Origin: an uncultured Cohaesibacter sp. | GTDB taxonomy: Bacteria > Pseudomonadota > Alphaproteobacteria > Rhizobiales > Cohaesibacteraceae | DNA: 64,000 nucleotides | NCBI RefSeq assembly: GCF_963678225.1 | Contig: NZ_OY782764.1 | Location: 2,175,001-2,239,000, forward strand | Reading direction: 5' to 3' | Shown: piece by piece, positions 34,322 through 50,876 of the stretch | Position numbering within the stretch: the stretch's first letter is position 1 | How the letters are laid out: each line of letters starts with the position of its first letter | Made by a program: the position numbers and the translations under genes | The notes under the pieces: generated by a model | What the model saw: only the letters and a program-made list of their open reading frames with translations | Told to the model about the DNA's origin: nothing | The model's database searches: none

Positions 34322-35623
34322 TCAGAAAAGGCTGTTAACCTCTTCATTGGCATCGGTAAGGATTTCTTCAGGATTTTCTCGTCCCAGCATGACTCTTTCG
34401 AGCGCTGCTTTCACGATGGAGGAAATCTCGTTGCCGTAGTCGGTAATCGGCGGAGCAAATGTGGTCTCTTCAGTGGCAACCTTGGTGAAGGCTGAGACAT
34501 CGACACCCTTGTCCTCGAAGGCCTTGACGGTGGTCTCGATCTGGTCCTGCTGGGCAGGGAAAACCACGCCCGCTTTGGCAACGGTTGCCTGACATGCATC
34601 AGAGCCCAGATATTGCACCCATTTCCAAGCCGCATCCTTGACCGGGCTGCCCGTCCATATGGAATCCGCCAGCCCGTTGAACATGGTTTTGCGCCCTTGT
34701 GGCCCGGCAGGAATGGGGGCAAAGGCAACCGATGGCTTTGACTGGTGGTAGAGGCCCACAAGCCATGAACCGGTCACTGTCATGGCTCCCTTATCCGAGA
34801 ACATCAGCGTTTCCGCCCCTAGGCGCCCCGTCTGCTCCACTGTCGGCATCAGGTGGTGTACACGGGCCAGATCCCTGATCCATGTCAGGGTTTGGGCGAG
34901 GCGTGGATCATCGAAGTTATAGTGGGTCGACCATGGTTCATCGATAAAATTCCAGCCCGTGCTGGCGGCCAGATAGGCCCACTCGGTTTCCCCTTGCGGG
35001 CTGAGCGGATTAAGCACAAGGCCAAAGGTGGCAATGGAATTGGGGTCAAAGCCCTCTTCATCACCTCGCTTGCCATTGGTGTCGACGGTGAGATGCGCGA
35101 TGATCTTCTGGAAGCTGCCCCCATCTTCGGGGTTCCAGGTCATATCGGCCAGATCAGATGGTTCAAGACCGGCGGCCTTCAGCTTGTCCTGGTCATAGGC
35201 GACTGCGACGGTTGCCCAGTCTTTGGGAAGACCGTAGATTGCGCCATCCTTGGACCAGTTCTCCAGCAAGCCCGGCAGATAGCCCGATGTATCATAGGAG
35301 GCGTCAGCAAGAAGCGGAGTGAGATCCTCGATCATCTGGTTGGCGGCAAATTCTGGCAGGCGCATCAGGTGATTGACGAAAACGTCAGGTGCATCACCGG
35401 AAATGAAGCTGGTCGTCAGGTTCGTCCAATATTGATCCCAGCCTGTTTGCGTGATCTCGATATGGATGTCGCTGTTCAGTGCCTCGAAATCATTTGCGCA
35501 CTGCTGATAGACAGGCGCCTGTTGCCCATCCCACATCCAGTAGCGCACGGTGTCTTGCGCAAAAACGGTTGTCGGAGCCAGAATGGCTGCGGACACAAGA
35601 AGATAGTTCGTTAGGTTCTTCAT
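34322..35623 (-). CDS. Alpha-galactoside ABC transporter binding protein
   Basis: The 433-residue periplasmic protein of the MalE/UgpB (SBP_bac_1) family has a signal peptide ending at about residue 22 (VFA/QD). It captures an oligosaccharide for the two permeases encoded upstream. The substrate (raffinose, melibiose or stachyose-like) is inferred from the GH36 gene. A stem-loop follows the gene. Confidence 0.9.
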   Translation of the reverse strand: MKNLTNYLLVSAAILAPTTVFAQDTVRYWMWDGQQAPVYQQCANDFEALNSDIHIEITQTGWDQYWTNLTTSFISGDAPDVFVNHLMRLPEFAANQMIEDLTPLLADASYDTSGYLPGLLENWSKDGAIYGLPKDWATVAVAYDQDKLKAAGLEPSDLADMTWNPEDGGSFQKIIAHLTVDTNGKRGDEEGFDPNSIATFGLVLNPLSPQGETEWAYLAASTGWNFIDEPWSTHYNFDDPRLAQTLTWIRDLARVHHLMPTVEQTGRLGAETLMFSDKGAMTVTGSWLVGLYHQSKPSVAFAPIPAGPQGRKTMFNGLADSIWTGSPVKDAAWKWVQYLGSDACQATVAKAGVVFPAQQDQIETTVKAFEDKGVDVSAFTKVATEETTFAPPITDYGNEISSIVKAALERVMLGRENPEEILTDANEEVNSLF

Positions 35624-37630: not shown

Positions 37631-38677
37631 ATGAAAGCAAAATCTGTCACCAGCCATGATGTGGCCAAACTGGCCGGCGTTTCCCGTTCGACCGTGTCTC
37701 TGGTTCTGAACGGTTCAAATGCTGTTAGCCTCAGCGAAGAAACCAAGGAGCGCGTGCGTGAAGCTGCGCGCATTCTGGGCTATCGTCCCAATTCTGCGGC
37801 GCTTATGCTGCGCAAAGGGCGAACGGATACGATCGGTCTGGTGATCACTGAAACGCGCTCCATCCGTGTGGATGCCTATATCCCCATATTGCATTACGCG
37901 ATTGCCGATGTTCTGAAAGAGGCGGGTTACAGCCTGCTATTGGAGACCTTCGAACGGAAGAAGGGCGTCAATCCCTATACGGATCTGGTCTTTTCCCATC
38001 GGATAGACGGGCTGATGGTGCTCAGCCCTCATGTTGAAGACAAGGATCTTCATGCCTTGCTGGATAGCGGCTTTCCCGTTGTGCAGATCGGCTCGATCGG
38101 ACATCCAGAAGAGCTGAGCGTGACGACCTGCACCAGTGACAGCACAATGGAAGCCGTGCGCCATATCGTGGATTTGGGACACCGAAATATCGGCAGCGTT
38201 CCCTTTTCGCCTGCGGGCTTTTCCGCGACCGATTCCCGGTTGGAGGAACTGCGCCAGGAACTTTTAAAAAGTGGAATAACGCTCGACGCTGATTGCATCG
38301 AGTTCGGCGATTTCAGTGCAGAAAGCGGCTATAACGCAACCCTGCGCCTGATGAAGCGGCAGCCACGATTAACGGCCATATTTGCAGGCAATGATACCAT
38401 CGCGCTGGGCGTGATCGGGGCGCTCAATAGCCTTGGGCTGTCGGTGCCCGGCGATGTATCCGTTGTTGGCTATGATGATCTACCCTTCTCGGGTTTCATC
38501 TCGCCGCCCTTGACGACCGTGAAAATGAATGCAGACCATCAGGGCCGGCTTGCAGCGGACCTTATGGTCAAACGGTTGAAGGGTGAGACGATACCGCAAA
38601 AGCGGCTTGTCTTGCCTTCGCAAGTGGTCTTGCGCGCATCAACAGCCAAAGCGAGAAAGCAGGCCTCAGATCTGTAA
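37631..38677 (+). CDS. LacI-family regulator of alpha-galactoside genes
   Basis: The 348-residue repressor has the LacI helix-turn-helix (DVAKLAGVSRSTVSLVLNGS, residues 9-28) and a sugar-binding core ending PSQVVLRAS. It is divergent from the ABC transporter operon and has two palindromic operators in between. It probably senses galactosides or galactose. Confidence 0.92.
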   Translation: MKAKSVTSHDVAKLAGVSRSTVSLVLNGSNAVSLSEETKERVREAARILGYRPNSAALMLRKGRTDTIGLVITETRSIRVDAYIPILHYAIADVLKEAGYSLLLETFERKKGVNPYTDLVFSHRIDGLMVLSPHVEDKDLHALLDSGFPVVQIGSIGHPEELSVTTCTSDSTMEAVRHIVDLGHRNIGSVPFSPAGFSATDSRLEELRQELLKSGITLDADCIEFGDFSAESGYNATLRLMKRQPRLTAIFAGNDTIALGVIGALNSLGLSVPGDVSVVGYDDLPFSGFISPPLTTVKMNADHQGRLAADLMVKRLKGETIPQKRLVLPSQVVLRASTAKARKQASDL

Positions 38678-38795: not shown

Positions 38796-39557
38796 TCAGA
38801 TCGCGTAGGAGCCGATTTCGAAGGCGGCATCTGCGATACCCTGACGAATGGCATGGGCTAGTTTCAGGGCATTTGGCGTATCGCTATGGACCAGAATGGA
38901 ATCGATCTTGACAGGAATGGCTTCGCCCGTCGTGAGCTTCAGCTGGCCTGATGAAAGGGTTTCAGCAACTCTGAGTCGGATATCTTCAGGCTCATGCAGT
39001 AACGCACCAACCGTGCCGCGCGGAGCAAGACGCCCCGGAGCAGAGTAACCCCGATCAGCCAGAAAGGAATAGACAACCTCTATACTCTCTTCTTCGGCTA
39101 TACGAGAGGCCTCGGTATCGGCCAGCCCGATGAATTTGAGGGAGGGATCGAAGGACTTCATGGCCTTGATGAGTGTCCGCGCAACATCGGCGTCCGCAAA
39201 GGACAGGTTCCCCAATGCCCCATGGAAATTGGCATGGGTGAGCTGTGCACCGCGGTGTGCGGCAATGGCTGCAAGCGCACCAAGCTGAGTGATGGTCATC
39301 AACTCAAGTTCTTTGAGCGTCATTGTCATCATCCGGCGGCCGAAATTCTCTCGATCTGGATAGCCAATATGAGCCCCGACCCGCACCTTGTTTGTTTGCG
39401 CAAGGGAAACGGTTTCATCCATGATCAGGGGATCGCCAGCATGGGCGCCACAGGCAATATTGGCCGATGTGATCAACGGCATCAGATCGGCATCTGGCGC
39501 AATACGGTAAGGACCGAATCCTTCACCAAGATCGGAATTGACATCAATGCTTTTCAT
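38796..39557 (-). CDS. pxpA: 5-oxoprolinase subunit A (LamB/YcsF family)
   Basis: This 253-residue protein of the LamB/YcsF family is the ring-opening component of the ATP-dependent 5-oxoprolinase PxpABC. Motifs DLGEGFGPYRI (near residue 8) and SANIACGAHAGDP (residues 31-43) match the family. It is the last gene of a five-gene minus-strand operon. In this context the substrate may be a substituted pyroglutamate. Confidence 0.93.
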   Translation of the reverse strand: MKSIDVNSDLGEGFGPYRIAPDADLMPLITSANIACGAHAGDPLIMDETVSLAQTNKVRVGAHIGYPDRENFGRRMMTMTLKELELMTITQLGALAAIAAHRGAQLTHANFHGALGNLSFADADVARTLIKAMKSFDPSLKFIGLADTEASRIAEEESIEVVYSFLADRGYSAPGRLAPRGTVGALLHEPEDIRLRVAETLSSGQLKLTTGEAIPVKIDSILVHSDTPNALKLAHAIRQGIADAAFEIGSYAI

Positions 39558-39692
39558 CAGAACTCTCCCTAGTGAAGGCGGGGTGTTTGTTGTTTATTCC
39601 AGATACCCGGGGCTGGTCTATATGGTAGTAAAGAGTGGTGCAGGACCGACCAAAGCCGCACAAGCCACTCTTGAAGACAAAGGGCCTGTTGG

Positions 39693-40661
39693 TTAGGGCG
39701 CCAAATGGAATGCTGCGCAGGTCCTGATTTCATCCAGCATCCGATTTTGCTTTTCGGTTGCCGCCTTTGCTTCCTCTAAAGCGCAAGGGACAAAGCGCAC
39801 TGTGCTGCCAAGCCTTGCCTGCGCCAGAAGTGGCAGGTCTGCTTCAATCACGACACCCAGTTTGGGGTATCCACCTGCTGTATTGGCATCCGCCAGCTGA
39901 ATGACAGGTTTGCCGGAAGAAGGAAGCTGAATGGTGCCGGGCAATATACCGTGTGACAACAATTCCTTGCGCTCCATGGGGATAATTTCTTCCCCCTCCA
40001 ACCGATAGCCTATGCGGTTGCTATCTTGCGAAATCTGCCAGGCCTGTGCAGTAAACAGCGTCTGGTTTTCACGGTCGTAATCGCCCCATTCTGCTGCCTG
40101 AATGAAGCGTAGAGGCTGGGGAATAGCCGTGCTTTCAAACAAGGATTGCCAGATAGTAGAGCTCAAGCCAAAGGCAAGGGGAGGCGAAAGAGTGGCTTTG
40201 TGAAGCGCTGCGAGGCGATCTCCCTTTTGCAGGGCTCGCCCTTCAAGACCGCCAAAGCCGCCTTTCATATCAGTTGCGCGTGAACCTAGAATTTCAGGAA
40301 CATTCAGCCCGCCCCGCACAGCCAGATAACCGCGCATGCCGTTGGTGCTAAAGCCCATCTTGAGGGTCTGGCCGGGGCGCAGGCTTTGCACCCACCAGCG
40401 CGGCAACGGCTTGCCATCCAGCATGGCCTTGCAGTCGGCTCCGGCAAGGCAGATATCAACCGCTTCCAGAATGCGACATTCAAAGCCACCCAAGGTGATT
40501 TCGATGCCTGCGGCGGTTTCTTCGTTGCCCAACATGGCGTTGGCTATGCGCAATGCCAACGCATCCATCGCACCACTGCGACCGACGCCGAGTGATCCGA
40601 AGCCGGGGCGTCCGAGATCCTGTATGGTTGCCAGCAGACCCGGCGCAGAGATCTCGATCAT
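39693..40661 (-). CDS. pxpC: 5-oxoprolinase subunit C (KipA family)
   Basis: The 322-residue protein of the biotin-dependent-carboxylase-like/KipA family forms the PxpBC complex that activates the lactam with ATP. The start LLATIQDLGRPGFGSLGVGRSGAMD is diagnostic. Its ATG overlaps the pxpB stop by 4 bp. Confidence 0.92.
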   Translation of the reverse strand: MIEISAPGLLATIQDLGRPGFGSLGVGRSGAMDALALRIANAMLGNEETAAGIEITLGGFECRILEAVDICLAGADCKAMLDGKPLPRWWVQSLRPGQTLKMGFSTNGMRGYLAVRGGLNVPEILGSRATDMKGGFGGLEGRALQKGDRLAALHKATLSPPLAFGLSSTIWQSLFESTAIPQPLRFIQAAEWGDYDRENQTLFTAQAWQISQDSNRIGYRLEGEEIIPMERKELLSHGILPGTIQLPSSGKPVIQLADANTAGGYPKLGVVIEADLPLLAQARLGSTVRFVPCALEEAKAATEKQNRMLDEIRTCAAFHLAP

Positions 40662-41317
40662 GCTATCAACTCCTGAACAACGAACCGGATCCTGTCTCCG
40701 GGCATGATGAGGGAAGGGCTCCGTTTGGTTTCGTCAAAGAAGGAAAGCTCCGTCTTGCCGATGATATGCCACCCTGAAGGCGATGTCTTGGCAATGACGC
40801 CAGCCTGAGCGCCCCCGATCACCACGCTGCCTTCTTGCACGCTCAAACGGGGCTGGGCGCGGCGAGGTGTGGTCAATCTTGGATTCATGCCGCCAAGATA
40901 GGCAAATCCGGGCTGGCTGCCGAGGGCAAAGGCGACATAGTCCGGTTCCGAGTGCAGGGCGACGACTTCATCGACACGAAGACCGCAATAGTCTGAGAGC
41001 TCGCCAAGATCCATGCCCGTCTCACCGCCATAAATAACCGGGATTTCGACGAGGCGCCCATCGATCTGTTGTGGCCTTGTCCGTTGCCAAACCTGTTCAA
41101 GCTCAACCGTCATGCGCATCGGGTCGCAGTCGGGTGCCAGATAGACCAGAAGGGAATGCATGCCCAATACGGTCTCAACCACGCCTTCAAGCGCTTTGCA
41201 GGCTTGATCATAGGCCCAATAGCGGCTTTGTATGTCAACCGAAAGAGGTCCGCCTGACTGCACCAGCAAAGCGGAGGCCCCCATATGGGAGATGCTTATG
41301 GCTACGGAAGACGGCAT
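40658..41317 (-). CDS. pxpB: 5-oxoprolinase subunit B (KipI family)
   Basis: The roughly 219-residue protein of the KipI/allophanate-hydrolase subunit 1 family partners with PxpC. Motifs PVIYGGETGMDLGELS and FALGSQPGFAYLGGMNPRL are clear. I start at the ATG at 41315-41317, which matches the normal family length; an upstream GTG at 41419 would add 34 arginine-rich residues. The ribosome site for either is weak. Confidence 0.88.
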   Translation of the reverse strand: MPSSVAISISHMGASALLVQSGGPLSVDIQSRYWAYDQACKALEGVVETVLGMHSLLVYLAPDCDPMRMTVELEQVWQRTRPQQIDGRLVEIPVIYGGETGMDLGELSDYCGLRVDEVVALHSEPDYVAFALGSQPGFAYLGGMNPRLTTPRRAQPRLSVQEGSVVIGGAQAGVIAKTSPSGWHIIGKTELSFFDETKRSPSLIMPGDRIRFVVQELIA

Positions 41318-41438
41318 TGTTTCTTTCACAGAAGGTGGCTTTCGGCTTGGACGTCTGTGCCCGTATCTGTCAGGCACAAACGCGCGATTGGGGAACCCCT
41401 CGATTGAGAGCTTTACCACGGGATTTTAGAGACTTTCC

Positions 41439-42080
41439 CTATTTTGCATAGGCTCCGGTGTACGTGCCTGCAGCAACGGAAGCAAGAATTTCTTCTTCCT
41501 TCTTCTGCTGGGCGCGCGTGTTTGCCAGAAGGGTTTCGGCTTCCTGCGGCGCGATGGCCACGACGCCATCGGCGTCCCCCATGATGATATCACCCGGATG
41601 CACCATCATGCCGCCGATGCTGACTGGAATGTTGATGGCTCCCGGACCGTCCTTGTAGGGGCCGAGATGGATGAAATCCCGCGCGAATACCGGAAAGTCA
41701 TTGCTAGAAATATTGTCTATGTCGCGGATCGCACCATCAATCACATAGCCCGCAGCCCCACGCGATTTGGCAATGGCTACCATGATTTCGCCGATGAGCG
41801 CCCGGTCGCAATAACCGCCACCATCGACAACGAGAATTTCGCCCGGTTTCACAATGTCCAGCGCACGGTGGATGAAGCCATTGCTGCCCGGCACAACCTT
41901 GATCGTAAGCGCACGGCCGACCATGACACCGGCCCGATGGAATGGCTTGATGCCCTTGGCGCCTCTCAGACGATCCAGATTATCGCTGACATTGGCCACA
42001 GCGCAGGTCGCGAACTCGGCAATGAGGTGATCCAGTTTGTCTTCACTCGGGACCATTTCGGTCTTGCTCATCGCGGTCAT
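41439..42080 (-). CDS. RraA/HMG-aldolase-family protein
   Basis: The 213-residue protein belongs to the RraA/4-hydroxy-4-methyl-2-oxoglutarate aldolase family. Arg119-Asp120 in VIDGAIRD and the GGGYCDRALIGE loop match residues that bind metal and pyruvate in the aldolases, so an aldolase or oxaloacetate-decarboxylase activity is more likely than RNase E inhibition. The start overlaps the aminotransferase stop by 4 bp. With that gene it could take a 4-hydroxyglutamate-type amino acid to pyruvate plus a second oxo-acid. Confidence 0.85.
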   Translation of the reverse strand: MTAMSKTEMVPSEDKLDHLIAEFATCAVANVSDNLDRLRGAKGIKPFHRAGVMVGRALTIKVVPGSNGFIHRALDIVKPGEILVVDGGGYCDRALIGEIMVAIAKSRGAAGYVIDGAIRDIDNISSNDFPVFARDFIHLGPYKDGPGAINIPVSIGGMMVHPGDIIMGDADGVVAIAPQEAETLLANTRAQQKKEEEILASVAAGTYTGAYAK

Positions 42081-43318
42081 TGGGCCGCCTCCTGGTTTGA
42101 CGGGTTGTCAGCCAACTGCAGTGTTGACACAGCTTGAGAAATGGCAGTCATGCCCTCGGCGATGACCTTTTCTGAGGCCGCGAAGCTAAGACGCAGGAAG
42201 CCGGGCAGCCCATAGGATGTGCCGTCCATGAGAGCGACATGGGCCTCTTCAAGAAGGTAACTGACCAAGTCCAGGTCTGTTTCAATCCGTTCTCCGGCTG
42301 CCGTCTTGCTGCCCAGAAGGGCGCGAACATCCGGGAACACATAGAAAGCAGCATCCGGTGCCTTGCAGCGGATGCCGGGCACTGCGTTAAGGCCATCGAC
42401 AATGGCTGCGCGTCGCTTTGTATAGAGTGCTACCATATCGTCAACACAGGACTGATCGGCGTTAAGCGCGACCGTTGCTGCCGATTGAGAGAAGGAGCAA
42501 GCGCAAGTGGTGCTCTGTCCAAGCAGCTTGACGACGGCTTTGACCAGATCTGACGGGCAGACGGCGTAGCCTATCCGCCAGCCTGTCATGGCATAGGCCT
42601 TGGACATACCATTGACAATGACGCAACGCTCAGCAATCGAAGGGTCGACCGCCATCGGGGAATAGTTTTTTACGCCCTCGAAAGCGATATGCTCATAGAT
42701 CTCGTCAGTCATGATGCCGACCTGCGGATGCTTTTTAAGCACCTCGATCAAGCCACGCCATTCCTCGCGGGTATAAACGGCGCCGGTCGGGTTCGACGGC
42801 GAGTTGATGATCAGCCAACGGGTGCGGCTGGTAATCTGGCCCTCGAGCATATCCGGCGTCAGCTTAAAGCCCGTTTCCGGGCCACAAGCGACGATCTTCG
42901 GCTCACCACCGTTAAGAGAAACAATGTCCGGATAGCTCACCCAGTAGGGCGCAGGAATAATCACCTCATCGCCCGGATCAAGAGTGGCGGAAAAAATGTC
43001 GAAAATCAGCTGCTTTGCGCCATTTGCCACCACAATCTGGCTCGCGGGAACGTCGATGTCATTGTCCCGCTTGAGCTTGTCGGCAATGGCTTGCCGCAGT
43101 GCCGGAGTGCCTTGCGATCCCGTATAGTGGGTGTCTCCAGACAGCATCGATTGGTGGGCTGCTTCTATAATATGAGCGGGCGTGTCAAAGTCTGGTTCGC
43201 CAAGGCAAAAGTCCAGAATCTCGACACCCTGAGCGCGCAGCTCATCCACTTTCTGCTTGGCAGCAATGCTCGCGGAAGGTCGCAGTTTGCGAACTTTTTG
43301 CGAAATTGTGATCGACAT
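42077..43318 (-). CDS. Class I aminotransferase (aspartate aminotransferase-like)
   Basis: This 413-residue PLP enzyme belongs to the class I fold. The PLP lysine lies in NGMSKAYAMTGWRIGY, the NSPSNPTGAVY loop binds cofactor, and the C-terminal arginine in LPGFLRLSFA binds the substrate carboxylate. The ATG at 43316-43318 (MSITISQKVRKLRPS) has AGAGG upstream. It is first in the operon with the RraA-like and pxp genes, so it probably transaminates the amino acid released by the lactamase instead of serving general aspartate metabolism. Confidence 0.9.
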   Translation of the reverse strand: MSITISQKVRKLRPSASIAAKQKVDELRAQGVEILDFCLGEPDFDTPAHIIEAAHQSMLSGDTHYTGSQGTPALRQAIADKLKRDNDIDVPASQIVVANGAKQLIFDIFSATLDPGDEVIIPAPYWVSYPDIVSLNGGEPKIVACGPETGFKLTPDMLEGQITSRTRWLIINSPSNPTGAVYTREEWRGLIEVLKKHPQVGIMTDEIYEHIAFEGVKNYSPMAVDPSIAERCVIVNGMSKAYAMTGWRIGYAVCPSDLVKAVVKLLGQSTTCACSFSQSAATVALNADQSCVDDMVALYTKRRAAIVDGLNAVPGIRCKAPDAAFYVFPDVRALLGSKTAAGERIETDLDLVSYLLEEAHVALMDGTSYGLPGFLRLSFAASEKVIAEGMTAISQAVSTLQLADNPSNQEAAQ

Positions 43319-43655
43319 GCGATTAGACCTCTTAGACAAATTTGACAAGAAGGTAGGCGGCAAGTCTCAGCAAAAAAAGCGAATTAAAATTATTCGAAAG
43401 GATCAATTTTGGGAATGCATAGGATAATTGCGGACCTGTTGTTTAAAAAGGTAGAATGTGGAAAGACTTATGGATTGCGTTGTCTATGTCGTTGTTGTTC
43501 TCGCTTCAGTAGAAAAGTGATAGATCAGTAATTTTCTCACTATCAATTCCTTTTTCTCATGAGAAGAGCCGAATTTAATTCGCTTTCTTTTGTTGCTCAA
43601 TGTGGCAAGTATGTGGTCAAGTCAAAATAACACCAGCACCTGAGGAGACACTCCT
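43319..43655. other. Divergent promoter region, aminotransferase and TRAP operons
   Basis: This 337-bp AT-rich gap must carry both promoters. ATCAATTTTGGGAATG (43402-43417) matches 14 of 16 bases with a site upstream of the LysR gene (47681-47696) and may be the regulator's target. I see no gene here. Confidence 0.45.
43402..43417 (+). promoter_or_regulatory. Possible LysR-regulator site, copy 1
   Basis: ATCAATTTTGGGAATG lies 84 nt before the aminotransferase start and about 240 nt before dctP. It resembles copy 2 upstream of the LysR gene that ends this cluster. Confidence 0.35.
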
Positions 43656-44621
43656 ATGATTACCCGCAGCAGTTTGGCACTTTTGCTCCTGGCCACTTCT
43701 CCCGCTCTGGCAGACAATTGGGATCTGCCTCTGGCATGGCCTGCCGACAACTATATCAGCGTTGGCGCTCAGTCCTTCGCAGACCGCGTTCGTGAAGAAA
43801 CCGAAGGGCGTATCGACATCACCTTGCACACCGGTGGTTCCCTTGGCTTCAAGGGCCCGGAAATGCTGGGTGCCGTGCGCGATGGCCTCGTGCCGATCGG
43901 CGACATGCTGATGAACCAGCAGATTGGTGACGAGCCAATGCTCGGTCTGACATCTCTGCCTTACTTCCTTTCTTCGTTTGAAGAATTGCAGGCTTTCGAA
44001 AAATATTTCCGTGCTGACCTGGAAGACATCTTTGCGAAGAACAACCAGAAACTGCTCTATACCATTCCTTGGCCACAGCAGCAGATCTGGACCAAAAGCG
44101 AAGTCACCGATCTGGCATCCATCAAGGACATGAAGATCCGCTCTTATGACCGCTCTTCCACCGACGTGTTCGCCTCCGCTGACATGACTCCGGTTCAGTT
44201 GCCTTGGGGCGAAGTCATTCCTTCCCTCGCAGCAGGCACCATCAACGCTGTGGCAACCTCTTCTCCGTCTGCTGTCGATGGCTCCTTCTGGGAATTCCTG
44301 GACTATGGCTTCCCGACACGCCAGACCTGGAACATGAATGCCATGACGGTAAACATGGACAGCTGGAACGGGCTGAGCGAGGAAGACCAGAAGGCCCTGA
44401 CATCCATCGCAAATGAAATGCAGCCAGCTCTGTGGCAATCTGCGCAGGACGAAGACACCAAAAACATGAAGATCCTCGCAGAGCAGGGCATGACCCTTGC
44501 TCCGATCTCTGATGAATTGCGTGCAATTCTTGCTGAACGGGCAGAACCTCTGCGTGCCGCTGCAATCGAAAAAATGGGCGCAAAAGCTAAGGACGTTGTC
44601 GAAGGCTTCAAAACCAAATAA
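43656..44621 (+). CDS. dctP: TRAP transporter substrate-binding protein
   Basis: The 321-residue receptor has a short signal peptide (residues 1-19, ...SPALA/DN) and the carboxylate-binding arginine in MKIRSYD. GAGGAGACACTCCT precedes the ATG. It is divergent from the pxp operon. The substrate is likely the organic or amino acid (or lactam) degraded by that operon; this is inferred from position. Confidence 0.9.
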   Translation: MITRSSLALLLLATSPALADNWDLPLAWPADNYISVGAQSFADRVREETEGRIDITLHTGGSLGFKGPEMLGAVRDGLVPIGDMLMNQQIGDEPMLGLTSLPYFLSSFEELQAFEKYFRADLEDIFAKNNQKLLYTIPWPQQQIWTKSEVTDLASIKDMKIRSYDRSSTDVFASADMTPVQLPWGEVIPSLAAGTINAVATSSPSAVDGSFWEFLDYGFPTRQTWNMNAMTVNMDSWNGLSEEDQKALTSIANEMQPALWQSAQDEDTKNMKILAEQGMTLAPISDELRAILAERAEPLRAAAIEKMGAKAKDVVEGFKTK

Positions 44622-44647
44622 GAGCCCGACAACAATAAACCAGCCTG

Positions 44648-44677
44648 TCGAGGCGAATGCTCTGTCATTCGCCTCGA
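44648..44677 (+). promoter_or_regulatory. Intercistronic stem-loop after the second dctP
   Basis: TCGAGGCGAATG (44648-44659) pairs perfectly with CATTCGCCTCGA (44666-44677) over a 6-nt loop, 26 nt after the binding-protein stop, with no proper U-tract. It lies just before the dctQ ribosome site. Confidence 0.65.
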
Positions 44678-44712
44678 TCCTTATAAAACACTCTCACACC
44701 GGGAGTAGCATT

Positions 44713-45231
44713 GTGAAAATCTTGAAAGCCATTGATCGCTTTTCCATGGGGCTTTCGCTCTTATCCGGCATTATGCTTGGATGCATGGCCTTGCTGATCG
44801 TTGCCGAAATCTTTCTGCGTAAATTTGCAGACATCAGCTTGCATTATGTCTGGGAAGTGAGCGTGTTTGCCCATATGGCCGCAGTCTTTCTTGGCGCTGG
44901 CTGGACCTTGCGCACCGGAGGACATATTCGCGTCACCCTGTTGCTGGGCAAGTTGCCGCGTTTGGGAGAATGGATTGCCACATTGTTCGGTCTTGCCATC
45001 TCGGCCTATATGAGCAGTGCTCTCACCAAACTGGCATGGAGCTATTATGCCAGCGGACGGACGAGCGGTTCGGTGACTGACACCCCGCTTGCAATCCCCG
45101 CCACGATCATCGCCTTCGGAGCCTGTATGATGACGCTGCAGATTCTCCTGCGCGCCCTACGGCTTGTACTTGGCGAAGCACCTGATCTTGATACGACTGG
45201 CGAAGACGCCCCAGCCCCGATTATGGATTGA
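44713..45231 (+). CDS. dctQ: TRAP transporter small membrane subunit (DctQ family)
   Basis: The 172-residue protein has four helices and the DctQ motif LHYVWEVSVFAHMAAVFLG. The start is a GTG at 44713-44715 with GGGAG about 8 nt upstream; longer in-frame extensions would run back through the hairpin and binding-protein gene. It lies 7 nt before dctM. Confidence 0.86.
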   Translation: MKILKAIDRFSMGLSLLSGIMLGCMALLIVAEIFLRKFADISLHYVWEVSVFAHMAAVFLGAGWTLRTGGHIRVTLLLGKLPRLGEWIATLFGLAISAYMSSALTKLAWSYYASGRTSGSVTDTPLAIPATIIAFGACMMTLQILLRALRLVLGEAPDLDTTGEDAPAPIMD

Positions 45232-45238
45232 AGAGCCC

Positions 45239-46543
45239 ATGCCCGCTTCTGTTATTCTCCCTCTCGTTCTGCTTGTTGTCATTCTGGGGTCTGGCGTCTG
45301 GATTGGCCTTGGTCTTGCCGGTATCGGCCTGATCAGTCTTGAGGTCTTCCGCAATGTGCCCGTTGACAAGCTCTTTTCCCAATCCATCTGGAATGGCCTG
45401 TCTTCGGCTGAATTGTTGGCCCTGCCGCTCTTCATTCTGATGGCTGAGCTGATCTATCGCTCCAAGTTTATCGACGGTGTTTTTGGTGCTCTTGAACCCT
45501 GGTTGCGCAATCTGCCCGGTGGCCTGTTGCACACCAACATCATCGGCTGCGCCCTGTTCGCGCTGATTTCTGGCTCCTCTGCAGCCACCACCAGCTCCAT
45601 CGGCCGGATTACGGTCGGCGAATTGCGCCAGCGCGGGTATGATGAACGCATGACCATCGGTACGCTGGCCGGTGCCGGTACGCTCGGATTTCTCATTCCG
45701 CCGTCCATCGTCATGATCATCTATGGCGTGCTGTCGCGCACATCGGTGCTCAAGCTGTTTGCTGCTGGCATCATTCCCGGTATCTTTCTCTGTGTCGCCT
45801 TCATGGGCTATGTTGCAATTGTCACCAAGATGAATCCGGGCATGGTTGGCAAGACAGAGCCAATGAGCAAGCCGGACCTTTGGCGGGCGCGTTTCAAGCA
45901 GCTTCCGCTGTTGTTACCATTTCTTCTGCTGATCGTCGCGGTTCTTGGCTCCATGTATGGCGGCCTTGCCAGCCCTACAGAAGCGGCAGCTTTTGCTGTG
46001 GTCGCGACCGTTGTTATCATGGCTTTTGAGGGCTCTCTGACCATTTCCAACCTCAAGGATGCAGCAATTGGCACCTCTCGCACGGTCTCCATGTTGGGGT
46101 TGATCGTCGCAGCGGCTTCCTTCCTCTCCGTAGCTATGGGATTTCTGGCCATTCCTACCACGATCTCGCGGATCGTGACGCAGATGGATCTTGCTCCATT
46201 TGCCTTGATCCTGCTGCTGATCGTTATCTACATGATCCTTGGAACCTTCCTTGAAGGCATGTCCATGATCGTCATGACCATCCCAATCGTATTGCCACTG
46301 GTGCAGTCCGCAGGCTATGACAAGATCTGGTTTGGCATCTTTCTTGTGATCATGGTGGAACTGGCTCAGATCTCTCCACCTGTGGGCATGAACCTGTTCG
46401 TGTTACAGGGTATCACGAAAAAACCTCTTGGTGAGGTGGTGAAAGCGGCGATGCCATTCTTCCTGATCATGATGGCCTTTGTTTTGCTGCTGGCCCTGTT
46501 CCCGCAAATTATCAGCTTCCTGCCCAATCTGGTGATGGCCTGA
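45239..46543 (+). CDS. dctM: TRAP transporter large permease subunit (DctM family)
   Basis: The 434-residue sodium-coupled permease has about 12 helices. Motifs LISGSSAATTSSIGRITV and GTLAGAGTLGFLIPPSIVMIIYG match DctM, as does the C-terminal AQISPPVGMNLF. I use the ATG at 45239; a start at 45164 inside dctQ is unlikely. It is the last gene of the TRAP unit and ends at a strong bidirectional terminator. Confidence 0.92.
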   Translation: MPASVILPLVLLVVILGSGVWIGLGLAGIGLISLEVFRNVPVDKLFSQSIWNGLSSAELLALPLFILMAELIYRSKFIDGVFGALEPWLRNLPGGLLHTNIIGCALFALISGSSAATTSSIGRITVGELRQRGYDERMTIGTLAGAGTLGFLIPPSIVMIIYGVLSRTSVLKLFAAGIIPGIFLCVAFMGYVAIVTKMNPGMVGKTEPMSKPDLWRARFKQLPLLLPFLLLIVAVLGSMYGGLASPTEAAAFAVVATVVIMAFEGSLTISNLKDAAIGTSRTVSMLGLIVAAASFLSVAMGFLAIPTTISRIVTQMDLAPFALILLLIVIYMILGTFLEGMSMIVMTIPIVLPLVQSAGYDKIWFGIFLVIMVELAQISPPVGMNLFVLQGITKKPLGEVVKAAMPFFLIMMAFVLLLALFPQIISFLPNLVMA

Positions 46544-46580
46544 GGAAGGCGCTGAATAATTCAAATGGGTGAACAATACA

Positions 46581-46613
46581 AAAAGGGTGGGCCGGTTTTG
46601 GGCTCACCCTTTT
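46581..46613. terminator. Bidirectional terminator between dctM and the LysR gene
   Basis: AAAAGGGTGGGCC and GGCTCACCCTTTT form a 13-bp stem (one G-U pair) with a 7-nt loop, A-rich before and T-rich after, so it can end transcription from both convergent genes. Confidence 0.85.
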
Positions 46614-46639
46614 GTCTGGAATGAACAGCTATAGGCAGC

Positions 46640-47551
46640 TTAGATCGTTGCGCCATAGATCGGCGAGACAGTGAAATCGCAATGGGCCTGTGCCAACTCC
46701 ACTACTCGCAGCTTGAATTGCGACAGGCGGTCATGCCGATAGAGCAGGGCATAGCGCACATGTGGCATCTGCGATTGCATGACCAGTCGCCTCAGACTCC
46801 CAGCCTGAATGAGAGAGCGCACAGCAGCGATCGGGAGATAACTCACCCCCAGACCGGACATCGTGAATCCGATCTGTGCCAACAGGCTTTCGCAATTGAT
46901 GGTCTTGGAGGGAGTGATGCCCTGACTTGATAACCACCTGCCATAAACAAGCCCGGTTCCGGATTTGTTGCCCTGAACGAGCATCGTGAAATTGGCCAGA
47001 TCCGACAAAGAGAGAGGGGTGTCGGAGTCATCCAGATCGGGAGAACACATCCATGCATTTTCAACCAGTCCCAAGGGCTCTGAAACGCAGCGGGAATCGT
47101 TGAAGACATCAGGAATGACGATCATGTCGATTGTATCTTCCATCAGCCTGTCAAACAGGGCTGAGCTGGATTCGACAACCGGCTCAATGTTGATGCCGGA
47201 ATAATCTGCCTTGATGCTCTTGACCAGATTGGGCAACCAGGTCATTGCCGTCAATTCGGTCACGCCAAGACGAAATTGGCGGATGAGAACATCCTGTGAG
47301 CTGATCCGTTCTATGAATGTGTCTCGCCCTTCCAGCAATCCTCTGGCATAGTCAAGCGCCTCAGCCCCTTTTTCAGTGAGGCGCGCTGACCGTTTGCTCC
47401 GATCAAAAATAGCCACATTGAAAAGCAGCTCGAAATCCTGAACACGTTTCGAGACAGCAGACTGCGTGGTGTTGAGCTTGTCCGCCGCAGCGGCAAAGCT
47501 ACCAAGTTCAGCGATCCAATAGATTGCCTCAAGCTGCTTGAAGGTAATCAA
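46640..47551 (-). CDS. LysR-family transcriptional regulator
   Basis: The 303-residue protein has a LysR helix-turn-helix (FAAAADKLNTTQSAVSKRVQ, about residues 19-38) and a substrate-binding domain. Convergent with the TRAP operon, it probably controls the TRAP and pxp genes in response to their substrate. A box shared with the divergent promoter (see 43402 and 47681) supports that weakly. Confidence 0.87.
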   Translation of the reverse strand: MITFKQLEAIYWIAELGSFAAAADKLNTTQSAVSKRVQDFELLFNVAIFDRSKRSARLTEKGAEALDYARGLLEGRDTFIERISSQDVLIRQFRLGVTELTAMTWLPNLVKSIKADYSGINIEPVVESSSALFDRLMEDTIDMIVIPDVFNDSRCVSEPLGLVENAWMCSPDLDDSDTPLSLSDLANFTMLVQGNKSGTGLVYGRWLSSQGITPSKTINCESLLAQIGFTMSGLGVSYLPIAAVRSLIQAGSLRRLVMQSQMPHVRYALLYRHDRLSQFKLRVVELAQAHCDFTVSPIYGATI

Positions 47552-48639: not shown

Positions 48640-49422
48640 TTAGATAGTCCGCAGCGCCTTGAGAGCAACTTGCTCGGCTCTCGTGCAGGCCATCACATCC
48701 GGGCTCCTCATGGCTTTGTAAAGCACAATGGCATGTTCGGTGGCGGCCTGTAGCTGCATCTTCTCAGGTTGGGCTACCGTCTGGCGGAGCCGGTCTGCAA
48801 ACTCCGGGAGCAGATGTTCGATTTTTCTGACGCCTCTGGCTTCAAAACCGGCCTGCTGCAACGCCAAAGGCCCTAAAACCTGCCCCCTAAGAAAGCCGAG
48901 AAAATCAGTCGCCTCAAAATATTCGCCGCGCCCGATTTTACCCGCGCAGTAATGAATCCATGTCCAGAATCGGTCTTCGACCCATTGTTCATCAAGGCGT
49001 GGATAGGCGCCAACGCCCGTTTTGAGAGCGTCGGAAAGCTGGTTGTCTCTTTCCCATAGGACCGTCGGCTCGTCCACACGATCGGCGGCATCTTCAACTT
49101 CGACGAATTTGAAATCCACATGCAGGCCGTCCGGCCCATAAAGCGCAATGACCAGCCTAGGCTCGCCCACATGCTCCCCTGTGAAAGCGGAGAGGAGTTC
49201 CCCCAGACTAGCGACAATGTCCAGCCGTTCATTCTCAACGGCGCCATAGCAATCAGCAGCAACGGCAACCACCAAGTCAAGATCACTGAACGCATCAAGG
49301 GCATCTTCGCTGTAGGAGCCGGAGCAGGCCAGGCCAACGATGCGTGCATCGACACTGAGCGTTTCTATCGCCTGCCGTATGAAGGCGCGGTGTGCTGGGG
49401 TTGCTGTGCTGGGAAAGTCCAT
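48640..49422 (-). CDS. Nucleotidyltransferase-domain protein
   Basis: The 260-residue protein has the polymerase-beta-type motif GSYSEDALDAFSDLD (residues 35-49), with the two metal aspartates at 47 and 49. A helical C-terminal domain follows, similar to aminoglycoside adenylyltransferase-like proteins. It may nucleotidylate a small molecule or be an antitoxin-like protein; there is no evidence for drug resistance. A shortened relic of its 3' end lies at 38733-38790. Confidence 0.75.
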   Translation of the reverse strand: MDFPSTATPAHRAFIRQAIETLSVDARIVGLACSGSYSEDALDAFSDLDLVVAVAADCYGAVENERLDIVASLGELLSAFTGEHVGEPRLVIALYGPDGLHVDFKFVEVEDAADRVDEPTVLWERDNQLSDALKTGVGAYPRLDEQWVEDRFWTWIHYCAGKIGRGEYFEATDFLGFLRGQVLGPLALQQAGFEARGVRKIEHLLPEFADRLRQTVAQPEKMQLQAATEHAIVLYKAMRSPDVMACTRAEQVALKALRTI

Positions 49423-49511: not shown

Positions 49512-50519
49512 TTATTGGCTTTTCGGGCTCTTGGTGGAGTCTCGTACCACCAGTTCCGTTGGCAGTGTGATCTGGTTGAACGGCACATCCAGCCCGGCGA
49601 TCATGGCCATCAGCATGTTGACCGCCGAACGCCCCATTTGCTGCAGGGGCTGGTGCACGGTCGTCAGGGCTGGATGCATCTGTTCGGAAAGGGTAATATC
49701 GTCAAAGCCGACAAGGGAAATGTCATCAGGCACCGAGAGACCGGCTTCGCGAATGGCGGACATAGCCCCAAGGGCGCTGACGTCATTGGAGGCGAAAATC
49801 GCTGTGGGCCGCTCTTTGAGCGCCAGTAGCTGCTTGGCCGCATCATAGCCACCCAGCTGCATATAGTCCCCCTCACAGATCAGGGCGGGGTCAGTATCCA
49901 GATCATACTGGGCGACCATATCCTGATAGGCCTTTAAACGACTACGCGCGGAAAGCAGTTTGAGATTGCCTGTGATAAAGCCGATGCGCTTGTGGCCCAA
50001 CTCGATCAAATGGGACATCGCCTGCCGGCCGCCCTGATAGCCGTCAGTAATCACGGCGGGGAAGGTGGGTTCGTCAAAAACGGTTTCCACCGTAACCACC
50101 GGCAAGGAGGCATCACGCAGCTTTTCCAGATAATCGGCCTCGTAAGGCAACAGAACAATGATGCCGTCTGCGACCTGTTGCAACAGGTTGACCACACTGG
50201 AAGGCGGCTGGGTGTCATTGTCTGGCAGGGAATAGACGAGCATCTCATAGCCCGCCCCCCGGATTGTTGTGCCAATGCCCATAACCATCTCGCCTGTGAA
50301 AGAGGTGTGCAGCTGCGCCACGACGCCGATGATATGAGTGCGACCGTTGGAAAGCTTCTGCGCCAGAGGGTTGGCCACATAGCCCATTTCACTGGCAATG
50401 CGCTGGATATCCTCGCGCGTCTTGTCTGAGACACCCGGTTTGTCATTGAGCGCACGGGACGCCGTCATGCGTGAAACACCAGCAACTTTTGCAACATCGG
50501 CGAGGGTGGGTTTTGGCAT
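49512..50519 (-). CDS. LacI-family regulator of the beta-glucoside genes
   Basis: The 335-residue repressor has the LacI helix-turn-helix (DVAKVAGVSRMTASRALNDK) and a sugar-binding core ending PTELVVRDST. It is divergent from the ABC transporter and beta-glucosidase operon, whose promoter carries a perfect palindrome. I start at the ATG at 50517-50519; an in-frame start at 50531 adds four residues. Confidence 0.9.
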   Translation of the reverse strand: MPKPTLADVAKVAGVSRMTASRALNDKPGVSDKTREDIQRIASEMGYVANPLAQKLSNGRTHIIGVVAQLHTSFTGEMVMGIGTTIRGAGYEMLVYSLPDNDTQPPSSVVNLLQQVADGIIVLLPYEADYLEKLRDASLPVVTVETVFDEPTFPAVITDGYQGGRQAMSHLIELGHKRIGFITGNLKLLSARSRLKAYQDMVAQYDLDTDPALICEGDYMQLGGYDAAKQLLALKERPTAIFASNDVSALGAMSAIREAGLSVPDDISLVGFDDITLSEQMHPALTTVHQPLQQMGRSAVNMLMAMIAGLDVPFNQITLPTELVVRDSTKSPKSQ

Positions 50520-50876
50520 CTTCACTTGCAACCGTCTAGTTCAGCCCGAATTGGCAAATTGATCAAGATATAACGCTATCGTGTAACGCAACAGCCTTTC
50601 CCGATAGGCGACTTTATACTTACACCGCTTGCTTCTCAGAAGCCTTCAGACAGATCACTCTTCGACTTTTGTATAGTTTTTTGTGGTCTTAGTCTTAATT
50701 TTCGGGCTACATCGGCAGGAAACGGCCTTTTTGTCGCTCAGTTTGACCTTCATACAGTCTTCTGCGCTCTTTTCAAGTTTATTGACATGCAATAACGTTA
50801 CCGGTAACGTAGCATCTGTAAGATTGAAGGATCAAGCCTCGGGTCTGATCAACTCTTGAAAATATGGGAGGAAAGG
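50520..50876. other. Divergent promoter region of the beta-glucoside locus
   Basis: This 357-bp region lies between the LacI gene and the importer operon. It holds the operator-promoter at 50782-50810. Near 50570-50588 TAACGCTATCGTGTAACG has imperfect symmetry and might be a second, weaker LacI site for autoregulation. Confidence 0.5.
50782..50810 (+). promoter_or_regulatory. Promoter with LacI operator for the beta-glucoside operon
   Basis: TTGACA at 50782-50787 is a perfect -35 box, and TAACGT 17 nt later serves as the -10. The perfect 16-bp palindrome ACGTTACCGGTAACGT (50795-50810) covers the spacer and -10, so a bound repressor would block RNA polymerase. The central CG is typical of LacI operators. 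Confidence 0.8.

Follow-up and report, generated by a model that had tools for sequence, protein, structure and literature searches.

We analyzed a 64,000-nucleotide stretch of the 4.94-Mb genome of an uncultured Cohaesibacter sp. (hereafter the window; contig NZ_OY782764.1 of assembly GCF_963678225.1, G000:C2:2175001-2239000 in our numbering), in which a nine-gene locus unites homologues of all three subunits of the 5-oxoprolinase PxpABC with an aminotransferase, an RraA-family protein, a tripartite ATP-independent periplasmic (TRAP) transporter and a LysR regulator. A first-pass annotation made from the sequence had proposed these nine genes, and open reading frames and profile matches recovered each of them, with the expected family, at the same coordinates. 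Five lie on the minus strand: a class I/II aminotransferase of the aspartate type (42077..43363), a protein of the RraA/4-hydroxy-4-methyl-2-oxoglutarate (HMG)-4-carboxy-4-hydroxy-2-oxoadipate (CHA) aldolase family (41439..42080), a PxpB-like protein with carboxyltransferase subdomains C/D (40658..41419; score above the TIGR00370 cut-off), a PxpC-like protein with subdomains A/B (39693..40661; family match) and a PxpA-like protein of the LamB/YcsF family (38796..39557). The annotated aminotransferase frame opens with TTG; the likelier start is the ATG at 43318, which is preceded by an AAGAGG element and would yield a product of 413 amino acids. The 4-bp overlaps reported earlier for aminotransferase/RraA (42077-42080) and PxpB/PxpC (40658-40661) are exact, and good ribosome-binding sites lie upstream of RraA and PxpC. 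The plus strand carries the divergent importer, comprising a DctP-type receptor (43656..44621), the small permease DctQ (44497..45231, start uncertain and probably downstream of 44497) and the large permease DctM (45164..46543; family match), followed by the convergent LysR gene on the minus strand (46640..47551; TTG start). Importer and regulator agree in position, strand and family with the first description.

The same gene order is found in Cohaesibacter marisflavi (L009), where the RraA protein is 99% identical and a longer form of the LysR gene is open. Between the two, the ratio of nonsynonymous to synonymous substitution rates is 0.011 to 0.21 for eight of the nine genes (DctQ left out), so the locus is under purifying selection. 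The genome holds four PxpA genes and four RraA-family genes; with so few of the latter in 4.94 Mb, chance pairing is unlikely, and a rough estimate puts the probability of an RraA gene lying no more than 12 kb from any one gene at about 2%.

Among 51 distinct PxpA sequences, 31 carry Lys at the position corresponding to residue 110 of the window protein (VK.HGAL motif), Ile or Val followed by Phe or Tyr before ADR, and Cys222; this set includes E. coli PxpA, Mesorhizobium-type sequences and the three other PxpA copies of the same genome, which are 34.5 to 37.3% identical to the window protein and retain the lysine. The remaining 20, here termed class 2, invariably combine Asn or Ser at 110 with Phe-Leu at 165-166 and Leu222. 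The window protein belongs among them, with Asn110 in place of the VK.HGAL lysine, FL at 165-166 and Leu222. Protein trees covered PxpA, PxpC, aminotransferase, RraA and receptor; the final PxpA and aminotransferase trees used a careful method and the others a quick one. In the PxpA tree, from which the signature columns were not removed, the 20 class-2 proteins are separated from all others by a branch with support 100/99, and by sequence this clade is distinct from E. coli-type PxpA. The window's place inside it is unsure because its branch is long. Given a signature change that includes loss of the lysine, the sequences suggest that class-2 enzymes do not simply hydrolyze 5-oxoproline. A structure prediction for the window PxpA from two near-identical sequences reached a mean predicted local distance difference test score of 34.8, and the model was not used.

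Window PxpC scores 321 bits against the 500-bit cut-off of the 5-oxoprolinase PxpC equivalog NF045499, which E. coli PxpC passes with 592; the cut-off is narrow, as the genome's own lysine-type PxpC also fails it (228 bits). Class-2-specific columns are few (three in PxpB, one in PxpC), and the window proteins have none of them. The lysine-type PxpC belongs to a second complete PxpABC set in the genome (L016 7459-10187, about G000:C2:2802458-2805186), which has no RraA gene in the surrounding 16 kb and could serve ordinary pyroglutamate.

Joint conservation of the gene set in other genomes, a check proposed with the first-pass annotation, came out in its favor, and the set recurs across 20 class-2 neighborhoods. 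These comprise 14 chosen by PxpA match alone, the window itself, and five plasmid loci (L102-L106) picked for several clustered gene matches. Aminotransferase, PxpB and PxpC are each present in 20/20 and RraA in 18/20; a short-chain dehydrogenase/reductase (SDR) occurs in 19, biotin carboxylase in 15, an amino-acid ATP-binding cassette (ABC) receptor in 13, L-idonate 5-dehydrogenase in 11, 2-hydroxyacid dehydrogenase in 10, a TRAP receptor in 7 and glutamate dehydrogenase in 4. For loci L140-L143, the usual 12-kb limit was extended by an adjoining stretch when scoring the aminotransferase and the 2-hydroxyacid and glutamate dehydrogenases. Neighboring genes were recognized by similarity to a labeled set, an approach that can overlook more distant aminotransferases, those of L016 being an example. 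Class-2 loci with RraA span alpha-, beta- and gammaproteobacteria, and related sets turn up in bacteria from soil and plants.

The most direct comparison uses loci chosen by PxpA match alone, leaving out L102-L106: RraA lies in 12/14 class-2 loci versus 0/14 lysine-type loci (Fisher P ~6e-6, calculated as if related genomes were independent). Independence does not hold for these rows, since the Shinella (L163) and 'Roseateles' (L164) clusters are almost the same and L140-L142 are close relatives. An aminotransferase match near the Variovorax plasmid PxpA (H92) had been seen beforehand, and without this locus the count is 11/13. Stretch lengths were 12 to 19 kb for the 14 lysine-type loci and at least 19 kb for the 20 class-2 loci. 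Within the order, where 41 PxpA places were found in 40 genomes including the window and 20 other neighborhoods were examined, each of the six PxpA genes with 46 to 49% identity (L139-L143, L145) has an RraA gene no more than ~10 kb away, and the 14 at 43% identity or less had no RraA in their 12-19 kb stretches, also at a laxer threshold. The phylum search yielded eight genomes, two of them new and both examined, with RraA in one (L169) and not in the other (L168). Among the matches listed from 161 plasmid records with a PxpA match, six loci (L162-L167) were examined on that basis and five have RraA, the Rahnella locus being the one without.

Several variants of the arrangement were seen. In most class-2 relatives the set is accompanied by genes for biotin carboxylase, biotin carrier proteins and an SDR oxidoreductase, none of which occurs at the window locus. 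In four other Cohaesibacter genomes (L170-L173), the aminotransferase is found beyond the TRAP genes, with a 2-hydroxyacid dehydrogenase and, in the vicinity of both, a homologue of glutamate dehydrogenase (L170 5210, L171 5325, L172 4806, L173 4513). L-idonate 5-dehydrogenase homologues were found near class-2 PxpABC in L102, L105, L106, L140-L143, L145, L163, L164 and L166, often with 2-hydroxyacid dehydrogenase, and one more lies at the L165 edge by annotation. Three lysine-type Mesorhizobium-like loci found via RraA (L051, L052, L060) have RraA and biotin genes nearby. One of these, the Mesorhizobium variant at L052 2168-9609, combines lysine-type PxpA, biotin genes and RraA with a branched-chain importer and a proline-racemase-family gene whose best score is to trans-3-hydroxy-L-proline dehydratase (403, below the cut-off of 550).

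The window RraA protein is assigned to the PRK06201 subfamily (267 bits, cut-off 231) and falls below the CHA-aldolase equivalog NF006731 (133 bits, cut-off 179). In an alignment with 3noj it retains N67, H71, R119, D120, G140, K143 and E195, equivalent to Asn71, His75, Arg123, Asp124, Gly144, Lys147 and Glu199, so that the catalytic Arg, the metal-binding Asp and Glu, and the pocket Lys, Asn and Gly of HMG/CHA pyruvate aldolase are all present; Arg40, Thr145 and Arg195 are not conserved. The residues compared are those named in the available part of PMC5065237. Their retention makes aldolase-type chemistry possible and leaves the substrate unspecified. At the His75 site, the window protein and most of the RraA proteins compared have His, and 11/11 LigK-type copies adjacent to class-2 PxpABC have Gln; the 10 other Pxp-linked rows carry His (5), Leu (4) or Phe (1). 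As this site varies, the second cleavage product may differ between lineages.

The class-2 RraA proteins come from two subfamilies that separate in the quick RraA tree. PRK06201 copies include those of Bradyrhizobium (305 bits, cut-off 231) and the window, and LigK/PRK09262 copies include that of Paracoccus (220 bits, cut-off 179) and, by annotation name, those of Shinella, Roseateles, Phyllobacterium and Sinorhizobium. Class-2 aminotransferases are likewise of several lineages. That of the window scores 530 bits against the curated 617-bit cut-off of aspartate transaminase PRK06107, which the Paracoccus partner passes with 676. Repeated recruitment of both an aminotransferase and an RraA protein is our best evidence that both activities would be needed after ring opening. 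RraA-family genes also occur near HyuA/HyuB hydantoinase/oxoprolinase genes in Bradyrhizobium and Nitratireductor (L055 3410-9627, L056 3413-9624, L107 8591-14382), and this pairing with another ring-opening enzyme family is possibly a parallel solution.

Neighborhoods chosen by RraA gave a complementary view. Pxp genes are carried by 4/45 (L051, L052, L060, L061), and 7/45 (L010, L011, L050, L071, L072, L095, L099) combine aminotransferase, RraA and amino-acid ABC genes with no Pxp, the ABC genes of L099 sitting between RraA and the aminotransferase. A LysR-like gene is present in six of these seven; the other, L072, stops at a contig edge. The Pxp-free loci probably take up an amino acid, which would undergo transamination ahead of the RraA step, and the last gene of the Haematobacter module, a glutamate dehydrogenase, would be expected if 2-oxoglutarate is the amino acceptor. 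The amino-acid receptors of Pxp-free and class-2 loci are only 37 to 42% identical and so need not bind the same compound.

The window appears to draw on both arrangements. Its aminotransferase groups with those of Pxp-free L010, L011, L050 and L099 (100/99; this careful tree, the second for the aminotransferases, omits three rows whose branches were very long). In the quick RraA tree, the window protein joins L010, L011, L050 and a copy from a Pseudomonas syringae plasmid (92, unstarred). The window's TRAP receptor groups with receptors of class-2 TRAP loci (93, unstarred, quick tree). As aminotransferase and RraA are nearest the Pxp-free type and PxpA and receptor nearest the lactam type, the locus looks like a hybrid of lineages, firmly so for the aminotransferase and PxpA and less so for the rest.

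The receptor bears on what is imported. Its nearest solved structures are 6wgm, 2pfy (122 bits) and 2pfz (113 bits), the latter two ranking second and third of 79 distinct sequences matched to it. We take 6wgm to be a pyroglutamate-bound marine receptor, and 2pfy and 2pfz to be DctP7 and DctP6 of Bordetella, so that these Bordetella pertussis proteins would be among its closest solved relatives. According to the accessible portion of PMC13274462, DctP6 and DctP7 were solved with 5-oxoproline bound and their genes lie near a eukaryote-type oxoprolinase gene; the window receptor gene stands beside PxpABC. The receptor is thus apparently nearest to pyroglutamate-binding TRAP receptors, which supports the earlier proposal on this point.

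Taking these observations together, we tentatively read the locus, at a little short of an even chance, as a catabolic set for a substituted 5-oxoproline, in other words a glutamate analogue closed to a five-membered lactam. Judging from receptor kinship, the TRAP system would import the lactam; class-2 PxpABC, following the known reaction of its family, would open it with ATP to an open-chain amino acid; the aminotransferase would convert this to a 2-oxo acid; and the RraA-family enzyme, given its retained residues, would split the latter into pyruvate and a small oxo acid. The substrate best fitting an HMG/CHA-type last step would be 4-hydroxy- or 4-hydroxy-4-alkyl-pyroglutamate, yielding pyruvate and glyoxylate or a second 2-oxo acid. 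The sequence of ring opening, transamination and RraA step, as first proposed, also fits the loci with aminotransferase and RraA and no PxpABC. A C4-hydroxylated amino acid would plausibly suit both kinds of locus, with class-2 PxpABC supplying from its lactam the kind of amino acid that Pxp-free loci import; this is plausibility rather than proof. In the parts available, PMC6350885 places 4-hydroxyglutamate in several plants and in mammals, and PMC13117884 describes its conversion to 4-hydroxy-5-oxoproline during sample work-up.

A number of results weigh against this reading. The RraA catalytic residues are present in nearly all 68 distinct RraA sequences, whatever their neighbors, and hence do not point to a substrate; we dropped them as discriminating evidence. 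The site adjoining the active-site Asn is Ser in the window and Asp in 66/67 others (one gap). Neither Pxp genes nor a close aminotransferase relative were found in 34/45 RraA-chosen neighborhoods, which makes RraA look like a general-purpose module. Two of the 20 class-2 loci, in Rahnella (L162) and G849 (L168), have no RraA in 19.5-19.7 kb, and the three lysine-type loci that do have it weaken a strict link between lysine loss and RraA. The SDR of 19/20 and the biotin carboxylase of 15/20 class-2 loci are both missing from the window, for which our scheme gives no explanation. Window PxpC lies beside lysine-type Mesorhizobium copies and not with other class-2 PxpC (90, unstarred, quick tree), and the L016 lysine-type PxpABC set is adjoined by a class I/II and a class IV aminotransferase, both of kinds different from that of the window. 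In the portions of PMC6350885 and PMC13117884 available, 4-hydroxy-5-oxoproline is mentioned only where it was synthesized or arose during sample preparation. 4-Hydroxy- or 4-hydroxy-4-methyl-pyroglutamate is a candidate substrate. Because some class-2 loci come from peanut nodules, we also considered 4-methylene- or 4-hydroxy-4-methyl-glutamate, known from peanut and ferns, which would be a guess. A peanut-exudate transcriptome (PMC10061817, seen in part) could not be tied to the locus and gives no substrate support.

Among the alternatives, the same gene order could end in an oxaloacetate-type decarboxylase, the opened lactam yielding an amino acid, then oxaloacetate or a substituted analogue, and finally pyruvate or its analogue. 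In NCBIfam the LigK-type partners carry the name aldolase/oxaloacetate decarboxylase and the family of the aminotransferase is called aspartate transaminase, and in the Pxp-free loci aspartate import, aminotransferase, decarboxylase and glutamate dehydrogenase would be coherent on their own. To our knowledge, no common five-ring lactam opens to aspartate. Oxaloacetate, moreover, needs no dedicated decarboxylase, and a pyroglutamate-type receptor favors a glutamate analogue. We consider this route unlikely, even with a P. putida enzyme that performs both reactions (PMC5065237, in the part available). It is less likely still that the locus serves ordinary pyroglutamate, with PxpABC giving glutamate, the aminotransferase 2-oxoglutarate, and RraA an unrelated passenger. 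PxpABC with a transporter is a known 5-oxoproline pathway (PMC13274462, as far as available), the window receptor is nearest 5-oxoproline-binding receptors, and the aminotransferases beside L016 mean that PxpABC plus an aminotransferase is in itself not special; such use leaves unexplained the RraA proteins of two subfamilies in 18/20 class-2 loci versus 0/14 lysine-type loci chosen by PxpA, the class-2 changes in PxpA, and a second, lysine-type PxpABC set in the genome. An amino sugar acid in lactam or amide form as substrate, its pathway including the neighboring idonate dehydrogenase (11/20), 2-hydroxyacid dehydrogenase (10/20) and gluconate genes (gluconokinase in the S. chiapasense and B. 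pyrrocinia neighborhoods), seems quite improbable, as the first enzyme was not found in 9/20 and the second in 10/20 class-2 neighborhoods, the window among them, and these genes could form a separate adjoining pathway.

The proposed catabolic set for a substituted 5-oxoproline has partial counterparts in known systems, the Bordetella receptors described above among them. The subunits of PxpABC 5-oxoprolinase (E. coli ybgJKL; C. glutamicum pxpTABC) are homologous to those of the window, and the C. glutamicum operon includes an importer (PMC13274462, in the part available), as the window locus has its TRAP system; the window differs in lacking the PxpA lysine found in 31/31 of the other class and in its linked aminotransferase and RraA. 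The HMG/CHA aldolases (P. putida F1 ProA, LigK) of aromatic 4,5-cleavage pathways share family PF03737 with the window RraA, which is of another subfamily and has no aromatic-ring gene among the nine of its locus. Mammalian 4-hydroxyproline breakdown, through 4-hydroxyglutamate and 4-hydroxy-2-oxoglutarate to HOGA1, has the same last two chemical steps as those proposed here, although it uses unrelated enzymes, is entered from hydroxyproline and involves no lactam opening. Both 4-hydroxyglutamate and HOGA1 are covered in the accessible part of PMC13117884. No open paper among those listed describes the gene set in its title or abstract (subscription papers lay outside the coverage); the set is real and conserved, and is not described in the open literature searched.

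A broader proposal, which we regard as possible and rather doubtful, is that class-2 PxpABC constitutes a new lactam-opening enzyme class, assisted by biotin in most lineages. Its product would pass to an aminotransferase and an RraA aldolase, in a so far undescribed pathway that breaks down C4-hydroxylated pyroglutamates or glutamates and is found across plant-associated and marine Proteobacteria; the window locus would have been assembled from two separate lineages. Class-2 PxpA proteins are labeled 5-oxoprolinase in the annotated records examined. From a clade whose signature has changed and which is linked to a pyruvate-aldolase family, we predict that this label is wrong for class 2. By the same prediction, some nitrogen-bearing nutrient found around roots and in sea water is converted to pyruvate by an unrecognized route.

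A megablast search of the locus against plasmids gave a single 257-bp match and nothing else. Two LacI-family regulators flank the locus (window 37631-38677 and 49512-50531), each ~26% identical to the LacI protein near the Paracoccus class-2 cluster, and a sugar-type extracellular solute-binding protein (PF01547) is encoded at window 34322-35623. A 260-amino-acid open frame at window 48640-49422, which matches no Pfam family at E 0.001, is retained in C. marisflavi and, by eye, may be nucleotidyltransferase-like.

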